Positions 4,580 through 50,637 of a stretch of 64,000 nucleotides of DNA are shown here, piece after piece. Source of the stretch: a virus; the IMG/VR virus record IMGVR_UViG_3300032246_000397, positions 1 through 64,000 of that record; one strand, 5' to 3'. The position numbers were made by a program, and so were the translations under genes. Position 1 is the stretch's first letter. Each line of letters opens with the position of its first letter. Under the pieces are notes generated by a model, which saw only the letters and a list, made by a program, of their open reading frames with translations, was not told the origin of the DNA and did no database searches.

Positions 4580-4582
4580 CCT

Positions 4583-7628: not shown

Positions 7629-7629
7629 T

Positions 7630-9542: not shown

Positions 9543-9551
9543 GGAGTAAAT

Positions 9552-23573: not shown

Positions 23574-23987
23574 CTAATTTGAGGTTGGTTTACGGACTAC
23601 GATTGTAAACTCTCTCATAACATTCACACCGGGCGGCAGACCATCATCCGCATGCTCAGCAATGAATTCTTTAAAATTGCCCTGATGAAGACGCGCCTCA
23701 TACAACTCTACAGCATCGTGCTCACGGACAAACTCATCAAACGCTGCTCTGTCCGACAAGGTAAATCTTTCATTCAACTTCTTAATAACCGTACCTGCAT
23801 TTGTTTTAATACTTGTTGCGTTTGACTCATTACAAATTCCTAACATCTGCTGGGATAGTATGGCAAGTTCACTTTCAATTTCCCTTGCTTTTTCTTTCCA
23901 CTCAGATTCCAGTCTATCACGCTCACTTCTTATTGTCAAGTATATTTTTACTAATCCATCTAAATTTGTGTCTATAACTTCACTCAT
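23574..23987 (-). CDS. Coiled-coil replication-module protein
   Basis: 137 residues. The N-terminal half is a charged coiled coil; the C-terminal half contains SIKTNAGTVIKKL and LPPGVNVMREFTIVVRKP. This shape recurs in short-tailed phages beside DNA metabolism genes and loosely recalls Gam-like nuclease inhibitors, but I cannot assign that. It overlaps the upstream helicase gene by 8 bases. Confidence 0.7.
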   Translation of the reverse strand: MSEVIDTNLDGLVKIYLTIRSERDRLESEWKEKAREIESELAILSQQMLGICNESNATSIKTNAGTVIKKLNERFTLSDRAAFDEFVREHDAVELYEARLHQGNFKEFIAEHADDGLPPGVNVMREFTIVVRKPTSN

Positions 23988-25548
23988 CTTTTATTCCTAA
24001 CTCTTGTTTGTACAAATCAACCAGCTTTTCGTGGCTAGCAACTTTCCCTCGTAACATCTCATACATCTTGCGTTCTACTTCTGAACCTTGTAGATGCACA
24101 ACGGTCATGCTATTTACTTGCCCGACACGATCTATACGGGCTATGCATTGTAGATATGTTTCCACACTCATGACTGGAGACCAAAATACTACTGTATTGG
24201 CGGCAGTTAGAGTCACACCATGCGATGCAGCTTGTGGCTGAATAATAAGAACTCGTGGAAATTCTGAATTTTGAAAACGGTTAATTAAGTCGCCGCGTTC
24301 TTTAGCTCCTACATCTCCGCTAATGATTTCATTACTCACTCCTTGTTCAGTTAAATGTTTAGAAACTAAAGTAATCGTATGGCGATAAGGAACAAATACA
24401 ATAACCTTATGTTCCGTTTCATCCAGTACTTCCATTAGGGCATTTAATCGTGGTGATACATCAAACTCCACAACTTCGCGGGTGTCAGTGTAGACCGCCC
24501 CTCCCGAAATCTGTAATAGCTTTGTTAATTTTGCCGCCGCATTGACCGCACTAATCTTTTCCCCTGCCGCTTCAATAAGCATCTGACTTTTAATGCCAGC
24601 GTAGTATCTGTTGACTTGAGGTGTTAGTGGTATCTCACGGGTCTGATACATAACGCTAGGTAAATCCAAACACTGAGCCTTCTCAAAGCGTATTGCAGGT
24701 TGCAACGCGTTAAACACATCATGCCTTGACGTAGGCTTGGGCACATATTTAAACCGTGATACTTGGTGCATGACTTTATCACGCCAAGCCGTAAAGAACT
24801 TAGGGACATTTCCGGGCGAGACCAAACGCGCCAAGCCATATGCATCAAGGGGAGACTGGGAAGCAGGAGTTCCAGTAAGCATCCAAAGTTTAGTAGAAGG
24901 TTTCAATATTTTTGATAGTGTTTTAAATCTTTTAGTCGTAGCTGTTTTATACGCGTTTGCTTCGTCAACCACAATTAGGTCAAACCCTAACTTATTTATT
25001 TCATCCGCGACAATACTTACACCATCGTAATTTATGATAACAAACTCATACACTCCGTTAATTATTTTTTTGCGTTTCTCCGCATCGCCGTAGGCTACCG
25101 CTACGCTTCTGTGCATAGATGTCTTAAAGATATCAGCTTGCCATGCCGAGTACATAATAGATAGGGGGCAAATGATTAGAACGCGTTTTATTAAACCCTG
25201 AGACATTAAATAGTCGGCAGCCCATATAACTGAGGAAGTCTTGCCTGTGCCAGCCTCGTTAAAGCAGAAAGCCCTATCTTGTAGGGATAAAAACGCAGCC
25301 GTGGTTTCTTGATGTTTGAAAGGTGTGTACATTCCGGGCCACTTGTAATCGCGTTGTATCGGTGAAGGAACTTTATCACCACACACTTTTACTAGTCTTT
25401 GCATTTCTTCAATGCCCCAGTAGACCAATACATCAGCCTCTTTGCCGTTGTCTTCTAAGACTTGGCTTCTTTCTAAATAATCCGTTATCAAATTTACTTT
25501 TGACGATTCGATTTTAAATCGCACCGCCTGATCTTCAACTATATTCAC
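23980..25548 (-). CDS. SNF2-family DNA helicase/translocase
   Basis: 522 residues with a GTG start preceded by AAAGGA. Superfamily 2 motifs are in order: Walker A NEAGTGKTS (97-105), motif II VVDEAN (193-198), motif III LTGTPASQSP, a second RecA-like domain with VFVPYR, and motif VI QCIARIDRVGQ near residue 483. This is the minimal SNF2 core without accessory domains. It probably translocates on DNA in replication or recombination. It follows a 200-base structured gap. Confidence 0.9.
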   Translation of the reverse strand: MNIVEDQAVRFKIESSKVNLITDYLERSQVLEDNGKEADVLVYWGIEEMQRLVKVCGDKVPSPIQRDYKWPGMYTPFKHQETTAAFLSLQDRAFCFNEAGTGKTSSVIWAADYLMSQGLIKRVLIICPLSIMYSAWQADIFKTSMHRSVAVAYGDAEKRKKIINGVYEFVIINYDGVSIVADEINKLGFDLIVVDEANAYKTATTKRFKTLSKILKPSTKLWMLTGTPASQSPLDAYGLARLVSPGNVPKFFTAWRDKVMHQVSRFKYVPKPTSRHDVFNALQPAIRFEKAQCLDLPSVMYQTREIPLTPQVNRYYAGIKSQMLIEAAGEKISAVNAAAKLTKLLQISGGAVYTDTREVVEFDVSPRLNALMEVLDETEHKVIVFVPYRHTITLVSKHLTEQGVSNEIISGDVGAKERGDLINRFQNSEFPRVLIIQPQAASHGVTLTAANTVVFWSPVMSVETYLQCIARIDRVGQVNSMTVVHLQGSEVERKMYEMLRGKVASHEKLVDLYKQELGIKDE

Positions 25549-26964: not shown

Positions 26965-27216
26965 TTATACCAAATCATCTTTATTAAAACCTTTTTCAAA
27001 CAAGGCTCGTCGAATTTTTTTGAACGCACTTTCTTCTATATTTCGCACAGTTTGACGACTAACACCCAATGCTTTGGCTATTTCTTCTTGCGTCATGTTA
27101 CCGTTATCGGTTTCAGAAATATCTACCATACCAGCAAACGGAATCGGTTCTAAGCCTAGTTCACGTTCTAGTTCTATCATCGCCTTAATCCTATCTTCGG
27201 TAGTAAAAGTTGTCAT
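26965..27216 (-). CDS. Sigma-70 region 4-like HTH protein
   Basis: 83 residues. The C-terminal half (TQEEIAKALGVSRQTVRNIEESAFKKI in outline, about 41-70) closely follows the sigma-70 region 4 pattern (EEIG-x-x-L-x-V-T-x-x-x-V-R-Q-I-E-x-x-A-L-x-K-L-R). Region 2 is absent, so it is not a full sigma factor. It could bind promoter -35 elements or the core polymerase flap to redirect host transcription. It sits in a chain of ATGA-coupled small genes below the polymerase. Confidence 0.8.
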   Translation of the reverse strand: MTTFTTEDRIKAMIELERELGLEPIPFAGMVDISETDNGNMTQEEIAKALGVSRQTVRNIEESAFKKIRRALFEKGFNKDDLV

Positions 27217-27383: not shown

Positions 27384-27643
27384 TTCTCTTGTGCCTTTCT
27401 AATTATTTCTCTGCAAAATTTATAATCAAGTTTTGTTAAACAGTCATATCCTTTAAAGTCATAGACTTCGCACCATAAATCAGTTATTTCTTTGTCTGTT
27501 AGGGCATTGGCTAAATCTTTTTTTGGATGGGTGTAGAGTGGAGTTTCAGTCATATCTTCCCAAAGCATTTTCTCTTTAACAAAAGATAACTTCGATGCTC
27601 CATTAGATTTCTCATACATCCACGCTACTGGTTCATTGTTCAT
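27380..27643 (-). CDS. Small protein of unknown function downstream of DNA polymerase
   Basis: 87 residues from ATG 27643, which overlaps the polymerase stop as ATGA; a GTG two codons upstream is the alternative. It contains EPVAWMYEKSNG and TPLYTHPKKD, a pattern I recognise from many small phage proteins, then a Trp/Cys-containing helix. Function unknown; co-transcribed with the polymerase. Confidence 0.7.
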   Translation of the reverse strand: MNNEPVAWMYEKSNGASKLSFVKEKMLWEDMTETPLYTHPKKDLANALTDKEITDLWCEVYDFKGYDCLTKLDYKFCREIIRKAQEK

Positions 27644-29520
27644 TTCCACTCTTTCATATCTCCGTAATTGCGACCATACTGCGCTTCACATGCTACTGGT
27701 AAACCCTTAGCCCAATCAGGTGGGCTGGACATAACCTCGACAATCCATGCACAAGCCTCATCTACCTCATCATCGGGAACTACGCACACCGCCGCATCGT
27801 GAACTGTCAGCACGGGGCGATAACGCTCAGTAAGTTTAATCATTTGTTCGCCCACGACAATCCGTGCAAGAGCTTGAACTACGTTCTCTACCACTGATCC
27901 GCCCCATAGAGACACGGGGCCCTTTCGTGACTTATATTGGTATCCGCTAGTAGTTTCATCTGTATTGAGTTGAAGTTCTGGGTAACGTATGTATAAACCG
28001 TTTGGTAACTGTATACCATCGCTATACACTTTTACACATTTATTTTTACCATAATAAAAAGGTTTTTGTTCGGGTTGCCAATCAGCCATAATCTTTAATG
28101 CCTTGTCGCCTTCTCTCCATAGTTTTACAATCATATCATTAGTATCTCTGTACAATTTTACTATTTCGTCACACTTCTCTTTAGTAAGGTCAGCGCCTGG
28201 CGGCGATGTTTTCAGTGTGTGCTGTAACTTTAATGCGCCAGTACCATATCCGAGACCGAGTATGCAGGTTTTACCCACGAACCTTTCAACAGAGTCTTTT
28301 TTGGTGATGGGTCTATCATATATTTTCGACGCAAAGATGGAGTAAACATCATCTCCCAATTGGAACTCTTCAACCAAGTCGGTCTGACCCGAAAGCCAAG
28401 CGAGAACTCTTGCCTCAATCTGAGACGAGTCGCAATTGATAACCGTATATCCCTCTGGGGCAACCACCGCTTGCTTAAGAGTTTTTTTCTTAGCGTCACG
28501 GGACGGGAGATTTTGGAAGTTGACCTTGTCCGACCCCGCCCAACGACCCGTGTGTGCCCCGTAGTATTTAAGTGGGATGGGCAATCTTCCTCTATTACGA
28601 GACCCAACGTCAATGAATCTTTCAATTCTACTTTCCTCAATAGTTGATTTTGTACCCAAACGCACCGCAGCGAGTTGTTGAATAAATGGGTTTTCGTGTT
28701 CAGTCAACGCTATGAACCCTACATCGTTTTTTGCCAAAGCGTAGGTTTGCTTGCCAGTAGTCTTACTTTCTTTCATAGGTACTTCAACACCAAATTCTTC
28801 CAGCACCGTAGCGAATTGTTTATTACTAGCTAGTTTTTTGCGAACCGCCTCTTCGTTTTCGCATTGTAATTTTTCTTTTAATGTCCCTAATAACTGTAAT
28901 TTCTCGTGTTTTAGCTCTTCTAACCGGTCATTTAGTAGGGCATCATCAACCTCTAAAATTGGATTAATAAACATCCGCAAAGTTAAATCAATCAGTTGTA
29001 ACTCTTCTTGTGGAAACGCGCTCGACAATACTTGGAAAAGCTTATAAGTTAGTTCTACATCGTTTTTGCAATATTCGCCGTACTGGGCAAGCTCGCTATT
29101 TGTGAAGCCAGTTATATTCTTTCCTTTAGCCTCAACGACTTCCGTACCCTTCGTGCCTAGTTTGTAACGCTCAGATAGGTATGCTAAAGAGCCACCCACG
29201 TCTACCCCATTAGTCGCTCTACCCATGCAAAGTGTATCGAGATATAACTTGGGCTTGATACCAAACCGCCACGCTAGGATAGCCCCGTCAAACATAGTGT
29301 TATGGCAAAGTAAAGCGGAATCATTCCACGGTAGGGTGGAAAGGTATTTTTGAGTTTCAAGGTGTGAGCCAGAAAACCATTGCGTGATACCGTCGTCGAT
29401 CTTAACACCAACACCGATGACTTCAAATCTTCTATCCCTGATGTATTCCTCAGTTGTTAGCTTGGATAGCGAAAAGTCTTGAGCATAGTAGGTCTCAAAA
29501 TCTAGTGTAATTAGTTGCAC
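27640..29520 (-). CDS. Family A DNA polymerase with 3'-5' exonuclease
   Basis: 626 residues. Exonuclease motifs: TLDFETYY (about 5-12), CHNTMFDG (72-79) and YCKNDVELT (150-158). Polymerase motifs: A, NCDSSQIEAR (362-371); B, RFVGKTCILGLGYG (413-426); C, TVHDAAV (572-578). The motif B residue equivalent to E. coli Phe762 is Leu421. There is no 5' nuclease domain, as usual for phage enzymes. It is the main replicative polymerase candidate. A terminator lies just upstream, so its promoter or readthrough source is not obvious. Confidence 0.95.
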   Translation of the reverse strand: MQLITLDFETYYAQDFSLSKLTTEEYIRDRRFEVIGVGVKIDDGITQWFSGSHLETQKYLSTLPWNDSALLCHNTMFDGAILAWRFGIKPKLYLDTLCMGRATNGVDVGGSLAYLSERYKLGTKGTEVVEAKGKNITGFTNSELAQYGEYCKNDVELTYKLFQVLSSAFPQEELQLIDLTLRMFINPILEVDDALLNDRLEELKHEKLQLLGTLKEKLQCENEEAVRKKLASNKQFATVLEEFGVEVPMKESKTTGKQTYALAKNDVGFIALTEHENPFIQQLAAVRLGTKSTIEESRIERFIDVGSRNRGRLPIPLKYYGAHTGRWAGSDKVNFQNLPSRDAKKKTLKQAVVAPEGYTVINCDSSQIEARVLAWLSGQTDLVEEFQLGDDVYSIFASKIYDRPITKKDSVERFVGKTCILGLGYGTGALKLQHTLKTSPPGADLTKEKCDEIVKLYRDTNDMIVKLWREGDKALKIMADWQPEQKPFYYGKNKCVKVYSDGIQLPNGLYIRYPELQLNTDETTSGYQYKSRKGPVSLWGGSVVENVVQALARIVVGEQMIKLTERYRPVLTVHDAAVCVVPDDEVDEACAWIVEVMSSPPDWAKGLPVACEAQYGRNYGDMKEWK

Positions 29521-30099: not shown

Positions 30100-30304
30100 C
30101 TTTTATCTCACGATTCTTTTTAAACAAATAGTCATTACGATACTCACTAGGCGGAATAAACCCAAACTTTTTAAAGGTCTTCATTACATCTGCGCCAGCA
30201 GTCCAAACAAATTTGGAATTACGATCAATAGCCATATCTTGTTTATGTTCCTGTTTTATTTCATTGTCTATTGCTCTTAACTTACGAAAGGTTCTTATAC
30301 TCAT
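30092..30304 (-). CDS. Small basic protein of unknown function
   Basis: 70 residues; ATGA overlap with the VRR-NUC gene and 8-base overlap with the next gene. Rich in Lys, Arg and aromatic residues, no recognisable domain. The tight coupling supports that it is translated. Confidence 0.65.
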   Translation of the reverse strand: MSIRTFRKLRAIDNEIKQEHKQDMAIDRNSKFVWTAGADVMKTFKKFGFIPPSEYRNDYLFKKNREIKDE

Positions 30305-30588
30305 ATGAAATATAACTCCATGTATTGATTAACAGTATGCTCATTCACTACAAAAGCAGTACCCCCACTATCCTCTATCCTGTTGAGATTGTCTTGTTGC
30401 AATGCAGTAACCTGTCCGTTGTTGGCTTTACATTCTATCCCATAGAACTTTCCTTTATGACATACTAAAAAATCAGGCGCACCGCTACTGCCGTAACCGC
30501 CTGTGGCTGGCATGACATAATAGATTTCTTTCTCTTTGAGTATCTTCTTAACCTTGTCTTTAACTTTTCCTTCGGGGGTTTGTGCCAT
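30301..30588 (-). CDS. VRR-NUC domain nuclease
   Basis: 95 residues from ATG 30588 (AGGAG at proper spacing; ATGA overlap with the gene before). The VRR-NUC signature is present: GGYGSSGAPDFLVCHKGK, FYGIECKANNGQ, then LTALQQDNL-like helix. Asp in PDF and Glu-x-Lys in ECK are the nuclease residues. Stand-alone VRR-NUC proteins in phages are thought to act as structure-specific DNA nucleases or Holliday-junction enzymes. Confidence 0.9.
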   Translation of the reverse strand: MAQTPEGKVKDKVKKILKEKEIYYVMPATGGYGSSGAPDFLVCHKGKFYGIECKANNGQVTALQQDNLNRIEDSGGTAFVVNEHTVNQYMELYFI

Positions 30589-30923
30589 CACTCTTCTCCT
30601 CTAAGTTTCATTAACGATGGGTACGGCAACACTATGACAAAATAACTATCGCTTGTTTGCCACCCAATTTCTATTAGTTCTTCATCTTTCAATGTAGTCA
30701 TCAACATCAGGCTAGTCAACTCATGGTCTTGGAGTATCTGTTGTGGTCTTGACAAGATCATAGCCATCTTGGTTTTAATTTCATCGGGCAACGTCTGCTC
30801 ATCAAACTCACGAGTAAAATTATCGCCAACATATATCGTGTATTTATTTCCTACCTTACGCAACGGCACACGATACAAGTCCCAATTATATTGATGCACT
30901 ATCGGGCTTAGTTTTTCTAGCAT
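30588..30923 (-). CDS. Protein of unknown function
   Basis: 111 residues from ATG 30923; a TTG five codons upstream is the alternative and neither has a strong Shine-Dalgarno. It overlaps the preceding gene by 7 bases. Alpha/beta composition, with NKYTIYVGDNFTREF and a C-terminal SYFVIVLPYPSLM strand. No family recognised. Confidence 0.6.
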   Translation of the reverse strand: MLEKLSPIVHQYNWDLYRVPLRKVGNKYTIYVGDNFTREFDEQTLPDEIKTKMAMILSRPQQILQDHELTSLMLMTTLKDEELIEIGWQTSDSYFVIVLPYPSLMKLRGEE

Positions 30924-33099: not shown

Positions 33100-34413
33100 T
33101 TAGTCCTTATCAAATATAACTTTCTTGCCACATGGAACTTCCAAGCTCTTGTTCTGAGTAATCATCCACAGGGTAGGTGGAACGATATCCCACACAATGT
33201 CATTCTCTACATACCCGTCGGTAAACACGATGACGCACTCTGCGCTAAGTTTCTTCTCCTTGATGTATTTCGCTACACATGAGACGTGAGTACCGCCACC
33301 GCCTAATGGTTTTAGTAGCGATGCAATGGATTGATATTGGTCAGGCTTAAAGACTTGTTCGCCATGCACTTCGGCATCCCACCATATAACTCTTACTACA
33401 TCAGGCGACACTAAGTCACAGATGGATGCCAGTTCTGTTGCAAACTCCGTAAGTTCTACACCACCGATAGACCCCGACGTATCAATAGCCACGATGACCT
33501 CGCCGATAGTTTCGTTCTCCATGCTTGGCATATAAATATCATTCGCCATGTGACGCTTGTTCATCTTGCGCCAAGTAAACTCATCTTTGCCTTTCATGGT
33601 AGATGACACAAAGTCACGCAACGCATCTCGCCAATCTATCTTAGGTTCAAGCAAGTCGCTGATTGCTCTAGGAAGTTTCCCACCCATACGACCAGCAAGC
33701 ATACCGCCTTCACGCAACGCTCTGTCAATCTTGTCATTCAAGTCTTTAACATCTTCGGGGCTGATGTTCTCCCAGTCATGCTCGTCGAATCCATCGCCAC
33801 CCATGTCATAGTCTTTGCCGTTGGCTTTGATTACGTCGTCGCTATTTTGCTTTCCACCCGATGATGGATCGCTACCTTGCTCGTCATCACCCACGCCGTT
33901 TCCTTCGTCTTTGCCTGAGCCAGATGAGCTACCTTTAGGTTTTTGTCGTTGAGGATTTTCCTTACGGATATAGTTATAGACCTCACGCATATTCCAGTTG
34001 TGAAAGAACGGATCATACAACGCACCATCAGGCAACTCGACCAACTGCTCATTACCACCAGCGACCTTTCCCTTGATGTTAGCGATGATGTCATTGACTA
34101 CAAAATCCGCCGCCATGTTTGCAACCTTGCTATCTTCCTTCCACATATCCTTACCACGAGGGATTTGTTTCAATGCCACATGAAGATTCTCATGCAAGAC
34201 CAGACCACGCAACTTGGGTTCGGATAAAATAGTTTCTAAGAATGGGCGAGAATACTTCTTGTTCACACCGTCGGTGTATGCCGTAAACATATTCTCACTC
34301 ACCTCTGACTTACCCATCAGCATTACACCGCTATACAACGCAGTCTCATGGTGCTTCATCAATGTTACGTGGGCTTTTTTCAAGCGTACTTCTTGTTTGT
34401 TTTTCACTTCCAT
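33100..34413 (-). CDS. VWA-domain protein with zinc-peptidase-like N-terminus (CobT/DUF2201-like)
   Basis: 437 residues. The N-terminal domain has HENLH at 74-78, an HExxH zinc-protease motif, as in the DUF2201 putative metallopeptidase domain. A Gly/Ser/Asp linker spans about 160-215. The C-terminal VWA-like domain has the MIDAS sequence AIDTSGSIGG (309-318), a Thr in GGGGTHV and a downstream Asp in VFTDGY. With the AAA+ ATPase 0.3 kb upstream it resembles MoxR/VWA and CobS/CobT pairs, in which ATPase and VWA partner remodel or metallate a target. The target here is unknown. Confidence 0.82.
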   Translation of the reverse strand: MEVKNKQEVRLKKAHVTLMKHHETALYSGVMLMGKSEVSENMFTAYTDGVNKKYSRPFLETILSEPKLRGLVLHENLHVALKQIPRGKDMWKEDSKVANMAADFVVNDIIANIKGKVAGGNEQLVELPDGALYDPFFHNWNMREVYNYIRKENPQRQKPKGSSSGSGKDEGNGVGDDEQGSDPSSGGKQNSDDVIKANGKDYDMGGDGFDEHDWENISPEDVKDLNDKIDRALREGGMLAGRMGGKLPRAISDLLEPKIDWRDALRDFVSSTMKGKDEFTWRKMNKRHMANDIYMPSMENETIGEVIVAIDTSGSIGGVELTEFATELASICDLVSPDVVRVIWWDAEVHGEQVFKPDQYQSIASLLKPLGGGGTHVSCVAKYIKEKKLSAECVIVFTDGYVENDIVWDIVPPTLWMITQNKSLEVPCGKKVIFDKD

Positions 34414-34415
34414 GA

Positions 34416-34607
34416 TTACTCCTTGATATCAATGATTTCTACATGGTCTTCGGTAATAACAATCTTAGATGTTCCGTCGACCACACGCTTTAGTTTATAG
34501 ATAGTAAGACCTATAAATTCCTGATACTGATTACGTTTAAAAAAGTACAAGACAGTCATAGTCACCGCCCATACAATTAAAAATGTTTCGCTATTACTTA
34601 TTTCCAT
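34416..34607 (-). CDS. Small single-span membrane protein
   Basis: 63 residues with AAGGAG upstream. One membrane span near the N-terminus (about 8-24, FLIVWAVTMTVLYFF) followed by a basic then acidic cytoplasmic-like tail (VDGTSKIVITEDHVEIIDIKE). Directly coupled to the 30-residue membrane peptide upstream (TAAATG). Function unknown. Confidence 0.65.
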   Translation of the reverse strand: MEISNSETFLIVWAVTMTVLYFFKRNQYQEFIGLTIYKLKRVVDGTSKIVITEDHVEIIDIKE

Positions 34608-34700
34608 TTACTTCTCCTTTATTAAACAGATTAAAAAACCAACCATGATCCCCAATGCAAAAGCTATTAGAGTCCAAAGATATAGTGCGATTGCGTACAT
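34608..34700 (-). CDS. 30-residue membrane peptide
   Basis: A short frame fills the space between the AAA+ ATPase gene and the 63-residue membrane protein. It begins MYAIALYLW, is hydrophobic for over 20 residues and ends CLIKEK. Its TAA is directly followed by the next ATG, and its last codons contain the AAGGAG site of that gene. A weak GGGTGG precedes it. Position and composition suggest a genuine micro-membrane protein. Confidence 0.5.
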   Translation of the reverse strand: MYAIALYLWTLIAFALGIMVGFLICLIKEK

Positions 34701-34728
34701 AGTTATCCACCCTTCAATGGAAAGTTAA

Positions 34729-35802
34729 TTAGAACAACTCGTGATTATTCTTAGCCCAGTCTGCAATCTGCAAATTGTGTCGGGCAAGTTTCATCGCCTT
34801 GGTGTTACGCATCATCATAGTAAAGAACACCGCTTGCACCTCTGAACTAGGAATTTTATTAACAAACTTCATGAACTTGGTTAGTTCGTCTTGCGTATCA
34901 ATAGTGTCTACTGCTTGAAACATAATCATTAACTGCGCTGATATCTCTTCGGGAACTTTTATTCCGTCTGGATCTTTGATGATATCTTTTACATCCACTA
35001 GAGTTTTCTCCAACGATAGAAACGCTGACATATCACCAGCGCCACTAGCACCGATAGTGCCAGCCAATGCGACCATCGTTGCGTTATCACCCAATGTATC
35101 TCGATTCTTCACAATCACATCGCACTTAGCTAATGAACGGGGCGAACAGAAAGAAAGATTAGTTTTCTTAGGGTTGAAAATGTATGGGTTATCATCTTGA
35201 TCTCCAGTACGATAGCTTGCCAATGTCCGAGGGAACATAGCTACGAACGCACGAACAACACGAGAAACACCCCTAGCTGATGACCACTCTAGCCATTCAT
35301 TAACGCTTGGCTTTGCCATCTCCATAATACATACACGATTACCAGCATGAGCCAACATCGTATCGCCCACCCCATCGCTTGCATTGTTTGACGTGCCGAA
35401 AACGATACTACCTTTGGGCAACGCTTTGTCGCCGACCATTCTCTCCAACATCAGACGGGTAAAGATAACTTGCAATAGCTTTGGTGACTTCATGAACTCG
35501 TCGAGCAAGATAACCTTTGGCTTAGGAGAGTCAAGTTTGAAGAGAGATGAAACATAATACTCAAGCGACTGCGTAGCATGGTTTGGAATAGTCATACCTA
35601 CGTCGGACATATCCTTGACTGGGCAGTCCACATAAATGTAATCGTACTTGTCACCGAAGTCTTCCTCAATCATAGATAAGATCGAAGTCTTGCCACAACC
35701 CGGCTCGCTCACTATGATTGGTGTGATTTCTGAACCTATTAGGGGAATGGTTTTACGCAACTCGTTAATAGTTACTGTGGAATTGAAATTGATTTTAGAC
35801 AT
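34729..35802 (-). CDS. AAA+ ATPase of MoxR/CobS type
   Basis: 357 residues. Walker A SEPGCGKTS (32-40), Walker B VILLDEF (97-103), sensor 1 GTSNN (136-140) and a probable arginine finger in HAGNR (R156) are in correct order. The C-terminal lid is helical. These match MoxR/CobS-like ATPases that act with VWA partners; a VWA-metallopeptidase gene follows three genes downstream. Excellent AAGGAG. Likely a hexameric remodelling ATPase during early infection. Confidence 0.88.
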   Translation of the reverse strand: MSKINFNSTVTINELRKTIPLIGSEITPIIVSEPGCGKTSILSMIEEDFGDKYDYIYVDCPVKDMSDVGMTIPNHATQSLEYYVSSLFKLDSPKPKVILLDEFMKSPKLLQVIFTRLMLERMVGDKALPKGSIVFGTSNNASDGVGDTMLAHAGNRVCIMEMAKPSVNEWLEWSSARGVSRVVRAFVAMFPRTLASYRTGDQDDNPYIFNPKKTNLSFCSPRSLAKCDVIVKNRDTLGDNATMVALAGTIGASGAGDMSAFLSLEKTLVDVKDIIKDPDGIKVPEEISAQLMIMFQAVDTIDTQDELTKFMKFVNKIPSSEVQAVFFTMMMRNTKAMKLARHNLQIADWAKNNHELF

Positions 35803-35827
35803 TTGCTTCTCCTTGTTTAGATTGTCA

Positions 35828-36742
35828 TTACTGCATGGAACTGAAACTACCGAACTTGCTCAAGATATCGTCTATCCCTTCCTTCACATGATGGCGCACC
35901 GCATCGGAATCACGGATATCTTCTGCTTTGACACCATCTAATACTTTCTCCAACGACAGGCGAGCTTGCTCCAATCCTGAATCATTCTTAAGATTGAATC
36001 GCTTAAAACTTTCGATGTAATCTCTTGCTTTCTGAATCGTACCTTCGTAGATTTTGCGACGCTTGGTACGCAACTCGCCATTGACCTCTGACTCATCTAC
36101 ACCACAACAGTGGCTAATGGACTCCATCACCTCGACCAATCTCTCTGACTGTTCTTGTGCAATCGAATCTATAATGCCGTGCGATTGCTTTGTGTATGTT
36201 GTAAACAAATCATCAGCGATATCCTGCGCTATGCCACAACGAAAGTCGTTCATCGGAACTTCGGACACATAAAGGTTCAAGCTGAACTTGCTCGCCACTT
36301 GTTCTTTAGTTGGGTAGTCCGCACGATTGAACATAGTGCCTTGCTTGAAAGCCATGTCCGACACGATTGAATCGTAGTCCGTTGTTAATGAATCCACGAG
36401 AGAGTGGAAAGCTAATTCGTGTTCGTGATACTCTTGCTTGAACTTGGGTACGTCAACGCTAGGTAATAATTGTTGCGATTGATTCCATTTGTAAGTCCGA
36501 CGCTGAAGCCAGTTATAGATGGTCTGCCGATAATTCACCACCGCCTTATGCTTGGGATGGTTAGCTAACAGATTCTTAACATACCTGCCCGCCGACTTGT
36601 CAGCGTTCTTTGCCGTAGTAACTTCATCGCTGATGCCCCTGTCTTGCTTGGTGGCTGACCACACGCTTATGTCTACGCTGACTAACACCGCCGACGATGC
36701 AAGCGAGATCAGATGATCGGGTTTGGTTAATTCCATATTCAT
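35828..36742 (-). CDS. DUF3150-like protein, partner of the AAA+/VWA set
   Basis: 304 residues, helical and charged, with few Gly or Pro. It starts with a hydrophobic-polar segment containing ISVWSATKQD and includes long helices (QEQSERLVEVMESIS, KIYEGTIQKARDYIESF). In phages, proteins of this length and texture lie directly before CobS-like ATPases and are labelled DUF3150; I assign that by memory and position, not by search. First large gene of the replication operon after the promoter near 36.9 kb. Confidence 0.65.
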   Translation of the reverse strand: MNMELTKPDHLISLASSAVLVSVDISVWSATKQDRGISDEVTTAKNADKSAGRYVKNLLANHPKHKAVVNYRQTIYNWLQRRTYKWNQSQQLLPSVDVPKFKQEYHEHELAFHSLVDSLTTDYDSIVSDMAFKQGTMFNRADYPTKEQVASKFSLNLYVSEVPMNDFRCGIAQDIADDLFTTYTKQSHGIIDSIAQEQSERLVEVMESISHCCGVDESEVNGELRTKRRKIYEGTIQKARDYIESFKRFNLKNDSGLEQARLSLEKVLDGVKAEDIRDSDAVRHHVKEGIDDILSKFGSFSSMQ

Positions 36743-38549: not shown

Positions 38550-39140
38550 TTACTTGATAGCTTTTACAATCGCACTGATTACAGCATCATCTACTGTACT
38601 ATCTCCCCTGCCCTTAGCTGTCTTAGCACGGGTTTTGATAGTGTCTACTGTTTCAGCCAACCAAACAGCAAAATCTTTGGTAGGCGCACGGTCATGAGTC
38701 TTACCGTCCAGCTTATCCTTGTATTGCTTAACGTATCGTTTAAGATCCTTCATACGGTTGGATTTGTAATCGGACCAGTCATCCCGCCATCCCTTATGAA
38801 TACCATGCTTGACGGGATCTTCGTTACGCCATTTACCAAACTCTTGAGAAGAGTAGGACATCACGACGTTGATATCAACCTTAAATGCGCCATCAGTATC
38901 TTCTGATACTGGGATCCAATCAGCACTGTAGTACTGGGGAGGATTTAGCTCATTAAAACGTAACATCTGACCCGACTCAATCTCTACTTTGATTTCATCA
39001 GGAATGGCATCTAAAAACGACGGGCATTTATTGTAGATAAACTGACCGATATTAATACCACGTTCAGAACTGATACAGCCTTGATAGCTTGCGTCCTTCA
39101 AGCTAGTGATTTCGGACGTGAATGATTTTTTGATAATCAT
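38550..39140 (-). CDS. Early protein, paralog of the 39.3-kb gene, unknown function
   Basis: 196 residues. It aligns end to end with the 215-residue protein next door: ITSLKDASYQ, IPDEIK, LRFNEL, SYSSQEFGKWRNEDP, NRMKDLKR and KGRGDST have clear counterparts there. Its own promoter (39178-39206) and strong terminator make a single-gene unit. GGAG lies 6 bases before ATG. High-expression signals and a DNA-binding-like basic character suggest an abundant nucleic-acid-associated protein, which is inference. Confidence 0.8.
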   Translation of the reverse strand: MIIKKSFTSEITSLKDASYQGCISSERGINIGQFIYNKCPSFLDAIPDEIKVEIESGQMLRFNELNPPQYYSADWIPVSEDTDGAFKVDINVVMSYSSQEFGKWRNEDPVKHGIHKGWRDDWSDYKSNRMKDLKRYVKQYKDKLDGKTHDRAPTKDFAVWLAETVDTIKTRAKTAKGRGDSTVDDAVISAIVKAIK

Positions 39141-39324: not shown

Positions 39325-39972
39325 TTACTTATTCCATTGAACCATAAAAGCGTCAACGGCTAACTTCAACTTCGCCTCGTTCGCGGTCTCATCACCACGA
39401 GACTTAGCGTTCTTGCACTTCACGATCAAACCTTGATCGCCCTTGAACACTTCAACCACGCGTTGATTAAAGTCTAGCGTAGCGCCACGCTCTTTCGTTT
39501 TACCCTCGTTCAGGATAGTACGGGCTTGGCGCTTTAGATCGCCTAAGCGGTTAGAGCAGTAGGTGTTCACCTTGTCGCGCCATGACTTGATGATTGCGTG
39601 TAGGTACGGATTTTCGTTTTTCAACTTACCGTACTGTTGTTGACTGAAACTGAAAGCGTAGTCAACACCAACAACCACCTTTTCACGCTCATCTTCGAGA
39701 GCAGGGTTTGAGCCGTCGATCAATAAATAGTGATCGTTAACAATCGCGTAGCGTTCGGCTTTGTTCACTTCGTTAAAGCGTAAACGATAGCCGTCATACA
39801 ACTGCTCTTTGACTTCGTCGGGTACAGTTTCGGGAAACCCCTTTGACTGCTCCATAACATAGCGAGCAACACCACGCATACGGTCATTAGCAACCGCTTG
39901 TTTATACGCACCATCTTTGAAAGAGGTGATCTGATCGTTTACTGCAGGTACTGCGAGGGCTTTAGTAGCCAT
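39325..39972 (-). CDS. Early protein, paralog of the 38.55-kb gene, unknown function
   Basis: 215 residues. Blocks shared with the 196-residue neighbour include ITSFKDGAYK, VPDEVKEQL, LRFNEV, FSFSQQQYGKLKNENP, SNRLGDLKR and KSRGDET. Lys/Arg-rich C-terminal half. AAGGAG precedes the ATG, with promoter TTTACA-N17-TATAAC 60 bases upstream and its own UUCG terminator. The twin arrangement points to duplication of a complete transcription unit. No known domain recognised. Confidence 0.8.
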   Translation of the reverse strand: MATKALAVPAVNDQITSFKDGAYKQAVANDRMRGVARYVMEQSKGFPETVPDEVKEQLYDGYRLRFNEVNKAERYAIVNDHYLLIDGSNPALEDEREKVVVGVDYAFSFSQQQYGKLKNENPYLHAIIKSWRDKVNTYCSNRLGDLKRQARTILNEGKTKERGATLDFNQRVVEVFKGDQGLIVKCKNAKSRGDETANEAKLKLAVDAFMVQWNK

Positions 39973-41583: not shown

Positions 41584-42072
41584 ATGAAATTTACTGTAAG
41601 GAAGGTGGACATTCGGGTCCCTTCTGTTCAAACCACACTACTTTTTCTACAAAAGAAAATACTTCCGGCGGATACTCCGTACAAGCCAGACCGAGGACAT
41701 TGGTGGATTGCGTATGCAGAGGATGGAAAGCCTGTCGCCTTTGCGGGTTTGGTCCGCTCGATCAAATGGACAGATACAGGATATTTATGTAGAGCAGGTG
41801 TACTTGATAATTTTACTGGGCACGGTTTACAAAAGCGTTTAATATCTGTAAGAATACGGAAAGCAAAAGAGCTGGGTTGGAATTGGTTAATTACGGACAC
41901 TACAAATAACCCAGCTTCCTCTAATTCTCTTATTAGCACAGGATTTAAAATATATACTCCGGGGCAACCTTGGGGTTTTAAAAACGCAATCTACTGGAAA
42001 TATAAGGTTCAGCAAGATGCCGTACAAAGACGAGAACGTAAGAAAAGCGTATCACAAACTACAGAGCCATAA
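41584..42072 (+). CDS. GNAT-family acetyltransferase
   Basis: 162 residues with the GNAT order: beta-hairpin GHWWIAYAEDGKPVAFAGL (about 38-56), central strand GYLCRAGVLDNFTGHGLQKRL with an acetyl-CoA-loop-like G-x-G (about 66-86), and ITDTTNNPASSNSLISTGF near 103-121. The R/Q-x-x-G-x-G/A loop is imperfect but recognisable. The substrate is unknown; phage versions may modify host or virion proteins. Its 3' end overlaps the HNH gene by 56 bases. Confidence 0.8.
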   Translation: MKFTVRKVDIRVPSVQTTLLFLQKKILPADTPYKPDRGHWWIAYAEDGKPVAFAGLVRSIKWTDTGYLCRAGVLDNFTGHGLQKRLISVRIRKAKELGWNWLITDTTNNPASSNSLISTGFKIYTPGQPWGFKNAIYWKYKVQQDAVQRRERKKSVSQTTEP

Positions 42073-42429: not shown

Positions 42430-42996
42430 ATGGATGCTTTAATACCCCAAATAGAAGAGAACATTCCCCTTCCCAAAAACGCTACCGAAGCGTTTCCTGA
42501 GCTCACACCCCAAGAAGAATTAAACATGCGGGCTAATGTAGTGAAGCTAATGTCTGATTTAACGGGCCAACCTATTGCTCCAACGCAAGAAAACATTAAA
42601 GAAGCTAAAGAATTAGCTGTGCAAATGGCAGAAAACCCCAAATATCGCCCAGAATTTGGTAAATACCCTAATGAAACGCTTGCTATGCTAGCTGGCATGG
42701 TAGCCCAGATGAATGTAAGCATAGTAGATCAGCTTTCTGACCTAAAAACCTACGTAGTTAACAACTTAGTAAGCTCCGTAGAGGCTTCTAAGGACGTAAA
42801 AACCAAAATTGCGGCACTTCGGGCGCTTGGAGAGGTAGATGGGGTTGATGCGTTCAAGAAAAGAACCGAAATTACCCACAAAATTCAGACTATGGAAGAG
42901 GTTGAGACTGAATTAATGACTCTTTTAGACGAAGTTGAGGGTAAATACATAGATGTAGAGGCAAAAGAGCTACTAGACAAAGAAAATAATGACTAG
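42430..42996 (+). CDS. Putative small terminase subunit
   Basis: 188 residues, acidic and helical. It lies directly before the large terminase gene and overlaps it by 8 bases, the usual place for the DNA-recognition subunit. It has no clear HTH by eye, although about residues 25-65 could hold one. Identification rests on context and size only. Confidence 0.65.
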   Translation: MDALIPQIEENIPLPKNATEAFPELTPQEELNMRANVVKLMSDLTGQPIAPTQENIKEAKELAVQMAENPKYRPEFGKYPNETLAMLAGMVAQMNVSIVDQLSDLKTYVVNNLVSSVEASKDVKTKIAALRALGEVDGVDAFKKRTEITHKIQTMEEVETELMTLLDEVEGKYIDVEAKELLDKENND

Positions 42997-44521
42997 TACT
43001 ACCCTAAAACTGTCTCAAGAGCAGCTATTTAAGCTGCGACAACTAGTAAAAAACCCTAAAACTCCCGATGCAATTAAACGAAAAGCAAAGGACTTATTAG
43101 CTAAATATGACGAATTTCTCACCCAAGAACGAGGAAGAATATCCTTTTTGGATTTTGTTAAACACGTATACCCAGGCTATAAGGTCGGGGCACATCACCT
43201 CAAACTGGCTCAAATTTTTGAAGAAATTGCTGCAGGAAAGAAAAAACGTGTCATTGTTAATATTGCTCCGCGACACGGTAAGTCTGAGCTCATTTCCTAT
43301 CTGGCCCCTGCCTGGTTTCTTGGAAAGTATCCGCAAAAGAAAATTATCATGGGTTCCCATACAGCGGATCTGGCTGTTAACTTTGGACGCCGTGTTAGGA
43401 ACCTTGTGGGTTCAGAACCGTATAAAACAATTTTTCCGCAGGTAGAACTACAGGCTGACAGTAAATCGGCATCACGTTGGGGAACAAATTTTAATGGAGA
43501 GTACTTTGCTATTGGTGTGGGCGGTGCTTTGGCTGGACGTGGTGCTGATCTTTTTATCATTGATGATCCTCATAGCGAGCAGGATGCTAAGACTGGGCGG
43601 GCTGAAGTTTTTTTACCTGCTTGGGAGTGGTTTCAGTCTGGTCCTTTGCAACGCCTTATGCCTGGGGGCGCTATTATTATTGTCATGACTCGATGGAGTA
43701 AACTTGACTTAACCGGACAAATAGTAAAACAACAAGAAAACAACGACGAAGTTGACAAATGGGAAGTCATTGAATTTCCTGCAATTAAAGACGATGGCGA
43801 GAGCCTTTGGCCCGAGTTTTGGCCTGTTGAAGAGTTGTTAGCAAAGAAAGCAGCACTTGACATAAGGTATTGGAATGCTCAGTACATGCAAAATCCAGTG
43901 TCTGAAGAAGGTGCTCTGATTAAACGGGAGTGGTGGAACGTATGGGACAAAGACGACCCGCCAAATTGTGAATTTATTATCATGTCGCTAGACGCGGCTC
44001 AGGAGGCTACAAACCGTGCGGACTACAATGCGCTCACGACGTGGGGCGTCTTCTTTAACGAAGAGGTCAACAACTACAACATCATACTCCTCAACGCGAT
44101 TAAAAAACGACTGGAGTTTCCAGAACTCAAAAAGCTTGTTCTTGAAGAGTATAAAGAATGGCAACCAGATGCGTTCATGGTTGAAAAGAAGTCCAATGGG
44201 GCGGCACTCTATCAAGAGCTCAGACGTATGGGTATACCGGTCGGGGAGTTCACACCTGGCAAAGGGCAAGATAAAATCGCTCGCGTTAATGCTGTCTCTG
44301 ATTTGTTCTCGGGAGGCGTCGTCTGGGCGCCGGAACACCGCTGGGCAAAGGAAGTGATTGAGGAGTGTAATGATTTTCCTAGCGGATTAAACGACGATCT
44401 GGTAGACTCTACTACATTAGCTCTGTTAAGATTCAGACAAGGTGGATTCATTCGCCTTCCAAATGACGAACCAGAAGAAGATTTCTTGTACAAGTACCGC
44501 AAAAAAGCGGCGTACTATTAA
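42989..44521 (+). CDS. terL: Terminase large subunit
   Basis: 510 residues. ATPase domain: Walker A APRHGKSE (93-100), Walker B LFIIDDPHS (188-196) and coupling motif VMTRW (232-236). Nuclease domain: first acidic strand IIMSLDAAQ (D335) followed by TNRADYNALTTWG. The protein powers DNA packaging into the prohead through the portal and cuts the concatemer. Length is typical. The packaging strategy cannot be read directly, but apparent circular permutation would suit headful cutting. Confidence 0.95.
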   Translation: MTSTTLKLSQEQLFKLRQLVKNPKTPDAIKRKAKDLLAKYDEFLTQERGRISFLDFVKHVYPGYKVGAHHLKLAQIFEEIAAGKKKRVIVNIAPRHGKSELISYLAPAWFLGKYPQKKIIMGSHTADLAVNFGRRVRNLVGSEPYKTIFPQVELQADSKSASRWGTNFNGEYFAIGVGGALAGRGADLFIIDDPHSEQDAKTGRAEVFLPAWEWFQSGPLQRLMPGGAIIIVMTRWSKLDLTGQIVKQQENNDEVDKWEVIEFPAIKDDGESLWPEFWPVEELLAKKAALDIRYWNAQYMQNPVSEEGALIKREWWNVWDKDDPPNCEFIIMSLDAAQEATNRADYNALTTWGVFFNEEVNNYNIILLNAIKKRLEFPELKKLVLEEYKEWQPDAFMVEKKSNGAALYQELRRMGIPVGEFTPGKGQDKIARVNAVSDLFSGGVVWAPEHRWAKEVIEECNDFPSGLNDDLVDSTTLALLRFRQGGFIRLPNDEPEEDFLYKYRKKAAYY

Positions 44522-44530
44522 GGATAGATT

Positions 44531-47041
44531 ATGGCAATAGATAAAGCAATAGGGCAAGCTCCGTTAGGGATAAGTCAGTTACCCGAAGATATGATGGGAG
44601 ACGAACCTGCTTTAGAAATTACTATTGAAGATCCAGAGTCCGTAGAAATTGGTATTGATGGTAAGCCGCTATTAAAAATAGAACAAGACGAAGAAGACGA
44701 CTTTAGTAAAAACCTTGCTGAAGAAATGAGTGATTCTAAATTAGCAAGTTTGGCGTCAACTCTTGTAGAAGACTATGATAATGATGTCTCAGCTCGTAAA
44801 GACTGGATACAAACATATGTGGATGGCTTAGAACTCCTGGGTCTTAAAATTGAAGAACGTAGTGAACCGTGGGAAGGCGCTTGTGGGGTTTACCATCCAC
44901 TCCTATCAGAAGCACTAGTTAAATTCCAAGCCGAAACAATGATGGCTACGTTTCCTGCAATGGGACCAGTTAAGACTCATGTTGTTGGCAAAGAAACCCC
45001 AGAAAGTAAAGCTGCGGCGGAACGTGTTCAAGAAGATATGAACTTCCAATTAATGGATGTAATGTCTGAGTACAGACCCGAGCATGAGCGCCTTTTATGG
45101 GGTTTGGGTTTAGCAGGCAATGCGTTTAAAAAAGTTTATTACGATGCTTATCTTTGTCGTCAGGTAGCTATGTTCTGCCCAGCAGAAGATGTTGTTGTCC
45201 CCTATGGTTCTTCTAGCTTAGAGTCAGCAGAGCGCGTTACGCACGTCATGCGTAAGACAGAGAACGATATCAATCGCTTGATCCATGAAGGTTTTTACCG
45301 AGACGTTGACTTGGGTGAACCGGTTAATACGATGGATGAGGTAGAAAAGAAAATTGCAGAGAAGTTAGGGTTTAGAGCAACTACAGATGACCGCTATAAA
45401 TTATTAGAGATGCACGTTGACCTTGATTTAGAAGGTTATGAGCATACGGACGAAGAGACGGGCAAGCCTACGGGCGTAGCATTACCGTACGTTGTCACAA
45501 TAGAGAAAGGAACTAACAATGTTCTTGCTATTAGAAGAAATTGGAATCCTAATGATAAAGCTTGTAAAAAGCGTAATCACTTTGTGCACTACGGATATAT
45601 ACCGGGCTTTGGTTTTTATCATTTTGGTCTCATCCATCTTATTGGCGCTTTTGCTAAATCAGGTACTTCCATCATTCGTCAGCTGGTTGATGCAGGGACA
45701 CTTAGCAACTTGCCAGGTGGCTTTAAGACCCGTGGGTTGCGAGTAAAAGGTGACGACACCCCCATTGCCCCCGGTGAGTTTAGGGATGTTGACGTACCAT
45801 CAGGCGCCATGCGTGACAACATCATGCCGCTTCCGTATAAAGAACCCAGCCAAGTTCTCTTTGCTTTATTACAAAATATTGTAGAAGAAGGCCGCAAGTT
45901 TGCAGGCGCAGCAGATTTACAAATTTCCGATATGTCAGCGTCAGCCCCAGTTGGTACGACGTTAGCAGTATTAGAACGTACATTAAAAACGATGAGTGCG
46001 GTGCAAGCGCGTATCCACTACTCAATGAAGCAAGAGTTCCAGCTTCTAAAAGAAATTATTCAAGAATACACGCCAGAGGATTATCAGTTCACACCAGAAC
46101 AAGGTAGTCGTAAAGCAAAACAGTCTGACTACGACATGGCGTACGTGATTCCGGTGTCCGATCCCAACGCGGCTACTATGGCGCAAAAAGTAGTTCAGTA
46201 TCAAGCTGCCCTACAACTAGCACAGACAGCACCGCAGTTATATGACTTACCGCAATTACATCGTCAAATGCTAGACGTGTTGGGAATCAAAAATTACCAA
46301 AAGCTTATACCGCTGCAAGAAGATATGAAACCGCGTGACCCCGTGTCCGAGAACCAATACATGCTTACTGGTAAACCTGTCAAAGCGTTTATTTATCAAG
46401 ACCATAAAGCTCACATTGCAGTTCACATGGGCGCAGCGCAAGACCCACATATTATGCAGTTGGTTGGTCAAAATCCACAGATGGCGCAACAGATTCAAGC
46501 AGCGTTATCCGCGCACGTAGCTGAGCATTTAGGCATGGAATATCGCAAGCAGATGGAAGAAACTATGGGCGTGACATTGCCCCCATTCCTTGAAGCAGAT
46601 GAAGATGACCAAGAGGAAATTGATCCGCAAATGGAAATCCAGATGTCTCAATACGCTGCAAGAGCATCACAACAACTATTGCAACAGCACCAACAAGAAG
46701 CTCAGCAACAGAAAAATGCTCAAGCATCACAAGACCCACTTATTCAGATTCAACAACAAGAAGTTCAACTTAAAACACAAGATTTGCAACGCAAGATTGC
46801 TAAAGATCAAGCTGACAATATGCTTAAAGCACAACAGCAAGAAATTGAACGCGAGCGTATTAGAGCTCAACAACAAGCCGCAGGTGCGCAAACAGCTGCA
46901 AAACTTATGGGTGATGAATTAAACCGTCGAGGTAATCACCATCTAGAAGGCAAAAAAGCGGGAATTGAGATACTTAAAACCCATCACAAGAACGCACAAC
47001 AACAGGCTAAATCCCAAAGGGAGGAGCCAAAGAAAGGGTAA
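44531..47041 (+). CDS. Portal protein
   Basis: 836 residues, nine bases after terL. The centre has the portal-family texture of environmental short-tailed phages (GVYHPLLSEALVKFQAE near 118, CPAEDVVVPYGSSS near 219). The C-terminal 130 residues are Gln-rich helices (QQQEVQLKTQDLQRK), as in barrel-forming crowns. Twelve copies would form the DNA channel at one capsid vertex. The length is large for the family because of the Gln-rich tail. Confidence 0.88.
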   Translation: MAIDKAIGQAPLGISQLPEDMMGDEPALEITIEDPESVEIGIDGKPLLKIEQDEEDDFSKNLAEEMSDSKLASLASTLVEDYDNDVSARKDWIQTYVDGLELLGLKIEERSEPWEGACGVYHPLLSEALVKFQAETMMATFPAMGPVKTHVVGKETPESKAAAERVQEDMNFQLMDVMSEYRPEHERLLWGLGLAGNAFKKVYYDAYLCRQVAMFCPAEDVVVPYGSSSLESAERVTHVMRKTENDINRLIHEGFYRDVDLGEPVNTMDEVEKKIAEKLGFRATTDDRYKLLEMHVDLDLEGYEHTDEETGKPTGVALPYVVTIEKGTNNVLAIRRNWNPNDKACKKRNHFVHYGYIPGFGFYHFGLIHLIGAFAKSGTSIIRQLVDAGTLSNLPGGFKTRGLRVKGDDTPIAPGEFRDVDVPSGAMRDNIMPLPYKEPSQVLFALLQNIVEEGRKFAGAADLQISDMSASAPVGTTLAVLERTLKTMSAVQARIHYSMKQEFQLLKEIIQEYTPEDYQFTPEQGSRKAKQSDYDMAYVIPVSDPNAATMAQKVVQYQAALQLAQTAPQLYDLPQLHRQMLDVLGIKNYQKLIPLQEDMKPRDPVSENQYMLTGKPVKAFIYQDHKAHIAVHMGAAQDPHIMQLVGQNPQMAQQIQAALSAHVAEHLGMEYRKQMEETMGVTLPPFLEADEDDQEEIDPQMEIQMSQYAARASQQLLQQHQQEAQQQKNAQASQDPLIQIQQQEVQLKTQDLQRKIAKDQADNMLKAQQQEIERERIRAQQQAAGAQTAAKLMGDELNRRGNHHLEGKKAGIEILKTHHKNAQQQAKSQREEPKKG

Positions 47042-49722: not shown

Positions 49723-50637
49723 ATGGCTATTTCACGCGCACAACTATTAAAAGAGCTCCTTCCGGGTTTGAACGCTTTGTTCGGACTTGAGTATGCTCGC
49801 TATGGTGAAGAGCACAAAGAGATCTACGAAACTGAGACCTCTGAGCGTTCTTTTGAAGAAGAAACCAAATTGTCAGGCTTTACAGCTGCTCCAGTCAAAA
49901 ACGAAGGTTCTGCTATTCGTTACGACAACGGGCAAGAAGCATGGACTGCACGTTACAACCACGAAACCATTGCAATGGGCTTCAGCTTAACTGAAGAAGC
50001 TATTGAAGATAACTTGTATGACTCATTGTCTGCTCGTTACACCAAAGGTCTCGCGCGTTCTATGGCGTACACCAAGCAAGTAAAAGCTGCTGCAGTTATT
50101 AACAACGGATTTACCGCTTCTGCCGCTTATTACGGTGGTGATGGCGTTCCTTTGTTCTCAACAGCACACCCATTGGTTTCTGGCGGTACAAACAGCAACA
50201 CACAGACAACTATGACTGATTTAAATGAGACTTCTTTGGAAGCCGCCGTTATTCAGATCGCTGGTTGGACTGATGAGCGTGGTTTGTTAATCGCTGCTAA
50301 ACCTCGTAAATTGATTGTTCCACCTAACCTCATGTTCGTTGCAACTCGTTTGCTCGAGACTGAATTACGTGTTGGTACAACCGATAACGACATTAACGCT
50401 ATTAAGAACAATGGTTCTATCCCTGAAGGCTACACAGTTAATCACTTCCTAACCGACACAAACGGCTGGTATTTGACTACTGACGTACCTAACGGCATGA
50501 AACATTTCGTTCGCACCCCATTGAGCAATTCTATGGATGGTGACTTTGACACAGGTAACGTTCGTTACAAGTCTCGTGAGCGTTATTCTTTCGGTTGGTC
50601 TGATCCACTCGGAATGTGGGGATCACAAGGCGCCTAA
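49723..50637 (+). CDS. Major capsid protein, HK97 fold (Mu gpT-like)
   Basis: 304 residues. The N-terminal arm is helical (residues 1-60), followed by FTAAPVKNEG and the family-typical GDGVPLFSTAHPLVSGG with TNSN (about 139-158). DERGLLIAAKPRKLIVPPNLMF and YSFGWSDP complete the Mu-like head-subunit pattern. Strong AGGAG site. A terminator follows 22 bases after the stop, so the capsid gene ends a transcript, as expected for a highly expressed gene. Confidence 0.9.
   Translation: MAISRAQLLKELLPGLNALFGLEYARYGEEHKEIYETETSERSFEEETKLSGFTAAPVKNEGSAIRYDNGQEAWTARYNHETIAMGFSLTEEAIEDNLYDSLSARYTKGLARSMAYTKQVKAAAVINNGFTASAAYYGGDGVPLFSTAHPLVSGGTNSNTQTTMTDLNETSLEAAVIQIAGWTDERGLLIAAKPRKLIVPPNLMFVATRLLETELRVGTTDNDINAIKNNGSIPEGYTVNHFLTDTNGWYLTTDVPNGMKHFVRTPLSNSMDGDFDTGNVRYKSRERYSFGWSDPLGMWGSQGA

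Follow-up and report, generated by a model that had tools for sequence, protein, structure and literature searches.

Pairs of genes that encode an AAA+ ATPase and a protein with a von Willebrand factor A (VWA) domain have already been described in phages (PMC7824862; PMC4193335; PMC2784036). In the N4-like phages, such a pair, gp24 and gp25, accounts for two of the 14 core genes, and its function is reported as unknown (PMC4193335); in the available part of a CRISPRi-ART study, neither N4 gene is named, the gp25 that appears there belonging to phage PTXU04. For the MoxR ATPase and metallopeptidase-VWA pair of the group 2.2 jumbo phages, a role in virion assembly was proposed and no third gene is described in the part of the paper available (PMC7824862), and the same kind of role was proposed for p618 and p892 of ATV (PMC4124505). 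Genes designated cobST were reported in tailed viruses (PMC8651126). Outside phages, ORF100-103 of plasmid pCAR1, which include a MoxR ATPase and a VWA gene, were reported in 2009 to be conserved in R478, Rts1, SXT and R391 (PMC2642839). Here, a gene set of this kind is analysed in an uncultured phage, the virus record IMGVR_UViG_3300032246_000397 of IMG/VR, of which 64,000 of the 64,185 bases were studied (hereafter, the window). A preliminary description of this DNA had read an ATPase, a VWA-metallopeptidase and a DUF3150-like protein, with two membrane peptides, as a CobS/CobT-like machine of host takeover or protein remodelling. The five open reading frames (ORFs), from the DUF3150-like gene through the VWA gene, were all found in place on the minus strand, and the HENLH motif and the VWA domain with its metal ion-dependent adhesion site (MIDAS) were confirmed.

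Comparison with other genomes shows that the ATPase and VWA genes are accompanied by the DUF3150-like gene as a third partner. Starting from 131 unique phage ATPases collected in three scans, a VWA gene was found at most 2.4 kb away in all 112 loci with at least 3 kb of downstream sequence. A DUF3150 gene lies upstream of the ATPase, giving the order of the window (DUF3150-AAA-VWA), in 96 of the 114 loci with at least 1.5 kb upstream; in 17 others it lies on the opposite side, beyond the VWA gene (AAA-VWA-DUF3150), and the remaining locus, L144, ends inside the VWA gene. Four of the 17 reordered loci (L065, L066, L071 and L073) have ATPases 68-69% identical to that of the window, so that the order has changed even among fairly close relatives. 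When profiles are used, DUF3150 and VWA are each detected in 86/86 related phage loci with enough sequence, in support of the linkage of the three genes noted in the preliminary description. Both partners are still present in 11/11 loci where the ATPase is less than 50% identical to that of the window; in these loci, the window neighbours p215, g76, g339, g307 and g116 fall to 0/11, while a VRR-like nuclease gene remains in 8/11 and PolA in 7/11. It should be noted that the count of gene orders pools loci fetched with all three genes as queries. Because of this, the count was repeated for each query separately, and both partners were again found in 22/22, 23/23 and 32/32 loci having at least 5 kb on each side.

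The set is also found outside this group of phages, in a third order. In the Burkholderiaceae plasmids pRK1-1 and pBVIE02 and in phage MinM2, all three genes are homologous to those of the window and clustered, but arranged as AAA-DUF3150-VWA, with small genes in between in MinM2. A search of plasmids, using a phage DUF3150 as the query, gave 44 records at E<=1. DUF3150 matches were retained in 42 plasmid records, 16 of them typed conjugative, and the AAA-DUF3150-VWA order was read by eye in 41 of the 42 from three listings, those for VWA and AAA comprising the best 60 of 83 and the best 60 of 71 records; the 42nd record, CP114559, is not among the VWA and AAA matches listed. A few records depart in detail: in Simplicispira the ATPase lies 3.6 kb off, DUF3150 is split in two in CP015038, and in CP126319 the set spans the start of the record. 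Among contigs of bacterial genomes, the full triad is present in 58 of 78 loci (62 full triads less four in the eight reference loci that had been mixed with them), mostly from Burkholderiaceae, but also from Dechloromonas, Rhodocyclus, Bryobacterales and WWE3. The link between the three genes is real, since other phages and bacterial plasmids carry the set as well, with its genes differently ordered. Within the literature searched, what is new is DUF3150 as a constant third partner, for which no mention was found, as well as the changed orders, the sharing of DUF3150 with other motors, the enrichment of micro-membrane ORFs and a metal site whose residues are lost together, both described below.

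The third partner itself (35828-36742, minus strand, 304 aa) has no significant Pfam or PHROG match when searched alone, PF11348 (DUF3150) included. Its assignment rests on its family. PF11348 matches 22 of the 59 members of the DUF3150-like alignment at E<=1 (best 5.5e-8), although its cut-off is passed in only 1/14 records (G004, locus L127, 31.8 bits). A profile of the window's family (A1) retrieves four DUF3150 genes, one from MinM2 and three from plasmids, with E values from 5e-34 to 8e-59; two of these targets, those of pRK1-1 (5e-34) and MinM2 (1e-38), are annotated as DUF3150. The AlphaFold2 (AF2) model has a pLDDT of 90.4 and a pTM of 0.62, and the top match in a fold search among viral models is a DUF3150 protein (E 1.2e-16, TM 0.47). 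A second fold search gave only helical-bundle matches, with Z up to 9.0, which is within the warning range of the tool, so that no function was drawn from the fold. Family homology and a fold shared with annotated members thus support placing the protein with DUF3150, in agreement with the preliminary description. VMAP-M1, a model for the third component of the MoxR-vWA-VMAP ternary conflict systems, matches 2/59 members (best 0.0022), a defence-system library gave no convincing match (best E at least 0.004), and a search of NCBIfam returned nothing useful.

The VWA protein (33100-34413, minus strand, 437 aa) carries a HENLH motif at residues 74-78 (34180-34194, minus strand) and a MIDAS motif, DTSGS, at residues 311-315 (33469-33483, minus strand). 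It matches DUF2201_N (PF13203, putative metallopeptidase) with an E value of 4.5e-25 and 89.2 bits, against a cut-off of 23.2, and the DUF2201 VWA domain (PF09967) with 4.7e-15 and 56.2 bits, against a cut-off of 26.4. It further matches phrog_1314 (5.2e-78), and the fold matches of its AF2 model (pLDDT 83.9) are VWA domains, including NorD of NorQD and the MIDAS domain of midasin, with Z up to 12.8. Both profiles, the HExxH motif and the MIDAS identify it as a DUF2201 protein with a zincin-like, putative metallopeptidase domain and a VWA domain. In 69 viral sequences, no substitution is seen at E75, H78, D103 or the MIDAS residues, and H74 is found in 68/69. When isolates, plasmids and genomes are added to the viral sequences, DxSxS is present in 135/135 and HExxH in 128/135. 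In three Paraburkholderia sequences (L247, L248 and L250), H74, E75, H78 and D103 are all lost while the MIDAS is kept. This joint loss suggests that D103 is probably part of the same metal site as HENLH, and, within this sample of 135, the metal site can be lost but the MIDAS is always kept. The three sequences are natural metal-site-loss variants, useful as controls.

By tblastn, relatives of the VWA protein were found in 600 of 50,697 phage records. Many of the best 60 of these 600 matches are named "HNH endonuclease", "homing endonuclease" or "anti-sigma factor", which is misleading. The HNH endonuclease label, which is the PHROG name of phrog_1314, was rejected because Pfam shows a DUF2201 peptidase-VWA protein and no HNH. 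The name has been copied in RefSeq to N4 gp25, phage G gp576 and PA5oct, and is thus a spreading mis-annotation.

The ATPase (34729-35802, minus strand, 357 aa) was found by tblastn in 493 of the same 50,697 records. It matches phrog_1297 (E 3.9e-55), and its profile, compared with the PDB, finds midasin first (2.3e-10). The Walker A motif, SEPGCGKTS, was read by eye at residues 32-40 (35683-35709, minus strand), where G35, G37 and K38 are invariant; in the 60-row alignment, D101, E102, N139, R156 and R222 are invariant as well. K38 is kept in 123/123 sequences, with the motifs intact, and the second acid of Walker B is D instead of E in 56 of 63 ATPases outside the IMG/VR set. AAA_5 and AAA_3 each match 9/60 alignment members at E<=0.01, and neither is among the listed matches of the window protein itself. 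Profile kinship with dynein, midasin and MoxR, together with the Walker A, Walker B, sensor 1 and arginine residues, points to a MoxR/midasin-type AAA+ ATPase.

Two single-pass membrane ORFs are predicted between the ATPase and VWA genes, one of 30 aa (34608-34700, minus strand), with relatives in 19/219 loci, window included, and one of 63 aa (34416-34607, minus strand), with relatives by profile in 83 loci. That such ORFs occur here was borne out beyond the window. Among AAA-VWA gaps of 80-1500 bp, 50/80 contain a small ORF bearing a strongly hydrophobic 18-residue stretch, where 4.6 would be expected from base shuffles. Another 49 gaps are shorter than 80 bp, too short for a micro-ORF. The ORFs are frequent but not universal, and as they are of several unrelated types they are taken as accessory; the idea that the membrane peptides are core parts was given up for these reasons. 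One type of micro-membrane ORF, some 30 aa long and with LDLFYWRP as its C-terminus, was observed in the gap in loci L054, L137, L142 and others, in both gene orders; the pattern occurs in 36 loci, its position having been checked in part of them.

Among the described systems, N4 gp24/gp25 is homologous to the ATPase and VWA genes (phrog_1297/phrog_1314), with the two genes adjacent, the ATPase first and the positions of the VWA motifs kept. However, the N4 ATPase is only 24.5% identical to that of the window and no DUF3150 is detected. The group 2.2 pair, as it was described, has the domain make-up seen in the window. A more distant arrangement is found in the IncA plasmid pRA1, where a run of genes encodes, in this order, a NorQ/CbbQ-type ATPase, a protein of 301 aa, Bet, a lambda-type exonuclease, DUF3150 and a CobT-type VWA protein. 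Like the window, pRA1 thus has an AAA gene, DUF3150 (297.8 bits) and a VWA gene with HExxH and MIDAS, but the types of ATPase and VWA protein (PF06213) differ and Bet and Exo are interleaved. Only its DUF3150 scores against the profiles of this study, and weakly (E 1.9e-4, 9.9 bits); the plasmid census misses this type, as the queries did not list it. Judged by title, no functional study was found among the papers listed on SXT bet/exo with cobS or CobT/VWA, and the available part of Garriss 2009 does not mention those gene terms of the module that were looked for.

DUF3150 is also found with other partners. It occurs without a MoxR or VWA match in 17 of the 78 genome loci, which come from Planctomycetes, Deltaproteobacteria and other groups; a different, unrelated AAA gene lies upstream of it in 14 of the 17, and the other three loci start at or just before DUF3150. 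Beside it are DUF1257 (11 loci), a PD-(D/E)XK nuclease (8), a single-stranded DNA-binding protein (SSB; 4) and a UvrD helicase (3). An operon at 3690-10856 of locus L312 comprises AAA, DUF1257, DUF3150, SSB, a further gene, PD-(D/E)XK nuclease and UvrD helicase. It is also seen in L314-L316 and, in part, in L310, L311 and L313, from Desulfobacter and others, and is possibly an undescribed DNA-repair or mobile-element system. A second AAA gene of pRA1 (L317, 20384-21847), far from the DUF3150 of that plasmid, shares 30.6% identity with its counterpart in the L312 operon.

In the window, the triad belongs to a minus-strand replication block that also holds PolA (27640-29520; PF00476, 103 bits), a helicase (23980-25548) and a primase/helicase (19440-22325). 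A gene at 30301-30591, first named VRR-NUC by eye, is VRR-like: it scores 20.1 bits against Pfam VRR-NUC (E 2.8e-5), under the cut-off of 23.8. The DNA-processing neighbours are PolA, a PD-(D/E)XK nuclease, helicases and a primase. The large terminase (TerL; 42989-44521), the portal (44531-47041) and the major head protein (49723-50637) are encoded on the plus strand. Upstream of the triad, tandem paralogues (38550-39140 and 39325-39972, minus strand) are 32% identical to each other; neither gave a match in Pfam and PHROG searches, and the second has a relative in 121 loci by profile. By eye, an 83-aa protein (26965-27216, minus strand) resembles, in its C-terminal part, the helix-turn-helix of sigma-factor region 4, and a 162-aa protein (41584-42072, plus strand), located between both transcription blocks, is GNAT acetyltransferase-like. 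The plus-strand block also contains a single ORF of 2326 aa (12279-19259). DNA nearly identical to the 27-40 kb region was found in 1 of the 50,697 phage records, in two short places, one of 57 bases.

It can be proposed, tentatively and with somewhat less than even confidence, that the three genes encode one ATP-driven protein-remodelling machine of mobile elements, that DUF3150 is its adaptor, and that the machine acts on the complexes with which the element processes its own DNA. In this view, the motor ring would consist of the MoxR-type AAA+ protein. It would be linked to a substrate by the MIDAS-VWA protein, which may also clip that substrate with its zincin-like site. DUF3150 would recruit the machine to replication, recombination or conjugal transfer complexes of the element, and these assemblies would be loaded, dismantled or matured inside the cell. 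What is observed is the presence of the genes, their intact motifs and linkage, the survival of the set through changes of order, and its occurrence in phages and plasmids; from these we infer that the three products form a complex, that DUF3150 is its adaptor, what the substrate is and whether it is cut.

Several observations weigh against this proposal. In N4, phiFa, XC38 and phage G, the pair is present and DUF3150 was not detected over the whole records, and plasmid records with a VWA match (83) outnumber those with a DUF3150 match (42); the adaptor is therefore not obligatory. With these four phages, and with the 17 genome loci where DUF3150 lacks the pair, the link is strong but not absolute. 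Thus, independent occurrence of the genes, which the preliminary description would have taken as evidence against a joint machine, is not seen in this group of phages but is seen beyond it. The DUF3150 model has no match in the PDB at E<=0.001. Moreover, the flanks are not uniform: replication or recombination genes are found in the window, in pRA1 and in one Dechloromonas genome, where RecT and a primase adjoin the triad, as opposed to conjugation-type genes in plasmids. In pBVIE02, T2SS-E and VirB4 genes, which are conjugation genes, lie just downstream of the triad, and in the flanks of 24 triad loci, T2SSE/VirB11-type matches were found 7 times, TrbC/VirB2 matches 4 times and VirB4-type matches twice. 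These counts come from a hand-chosen, not random, sample of 93 proteins (92 of 147 listed and one RecT already known, after ORFs that were shorter or uncertain, and the whole of locus L229, had been set aside by hand); the matches are those of the 25 families listed out of 37, the matching member not being named. Finally, the ATPase of PA5oct carries an "ESI-MS/MS" note like the structural proteins of that record, the meaning given to this note being our own reading. Remodelling of the element's own DNA complexes is nevertheless preferred, because the handling of its own DNA is common to these varied flanks.

The PA5oct note, the ATPase bearing it being matched by the AAA profile at 9.7e-45, also fits the role proposed for the group 2.2 and ATV proteins, namely that the pair is a chaperone for head or tail proteins, acting in their maturation or assembly. 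However, the same triad on plasmids, 16 of the 42 DUF3150 records being typed conjugative, makes a purely virion-assembly role unlikely. In the window, the triad and its neighbouring replication genes lie on one strand, and TerL, portal and capsid are encoded on the other; the N4 genes are reported as middle transcripts (PMC4193335), and the virion protein table of LIT1, in the part of the paper available, has no gp24/gp25 homologue (PMC3715699). The occurrence on plasmids also suggests a broader role in mobile elements than host takeover. It could be read the other way, as phages and plasmids face the same host defences: the motor would extract a host protein, the zincin site would cut it, and a host process or defence would be disabled. 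Such a role, although rather doubtful, is consistent with the conservation of HExxH and D103 in the great majority of sequences and with the small membrane partners. Against it, three Paraburkholderia proteins lack all four metal-site residues with the MIDAS intact and 7/135 sequences lack HExxH, so that cutting cannot be the only function; the strong conservation across phage groups would also be unusual for a host-targeting factor.

The conjugation-type matches, including those of pBVIE02, and the hydrophobic ORFs of the gaps could also indicate a factor, anchored by the micro-proteins, that helps build a membrane apparatus for DNA entry or transfer. This is quite improbable, given that the micro-ORFs are of unrelated types and that 49 gaps have no room for one. 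Last, insertion of cobalt or magnesium into tetrapyrroles, the phage pair using the CobN of its host as was proposed for viral cobST (PMC8651126), is very improbable. The resemblance to the cobaltochelatase CobN-CobS-CobT is limited to the general architecture of an AAA+ protein and a MIDAS-VWA protein, and the matching family is DUF2201, not CobT. CobN (PF02514) matched 0/14 records, window included, the control being positive in 5/14 genomes, which upholds the earlier statement that no large subunit is present. CobT_C (PF11775) and CobS_N (PF12556) each matched 0/7 records at E<=1, and as none of the three models finds anything in the genome of the window, the cobaltochelatase reading was rejected and "CobS/CobT-like" survives as a loose analogy, not as a family.

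The proposed machine with its DUF3150 adaptor might be one of several. It is conceivable, though on balance doubtful, that DUF3150 is an exchangeable adaptor of mobile-element AAA+ machines with at least three motors, namely MoxR with DUF2201-VWA, a NorQ-like ATPase with a CobT-like VWA protein, and a classical AAA protein with DUF1257. In phages, conjugative plasmids and elements resembling integrative and conjugative elements, these machines would remodel protein-DNA complexes, taking them apart or loading them during DNA entry, recombination or replication. If this were true, the N4 core genes gp24 and gp25 would gain a function. A constant third partner and the occurrence on plasmids narrow the function to something that virus and plasmid share, and this function becomes testable in a laboratory phage.

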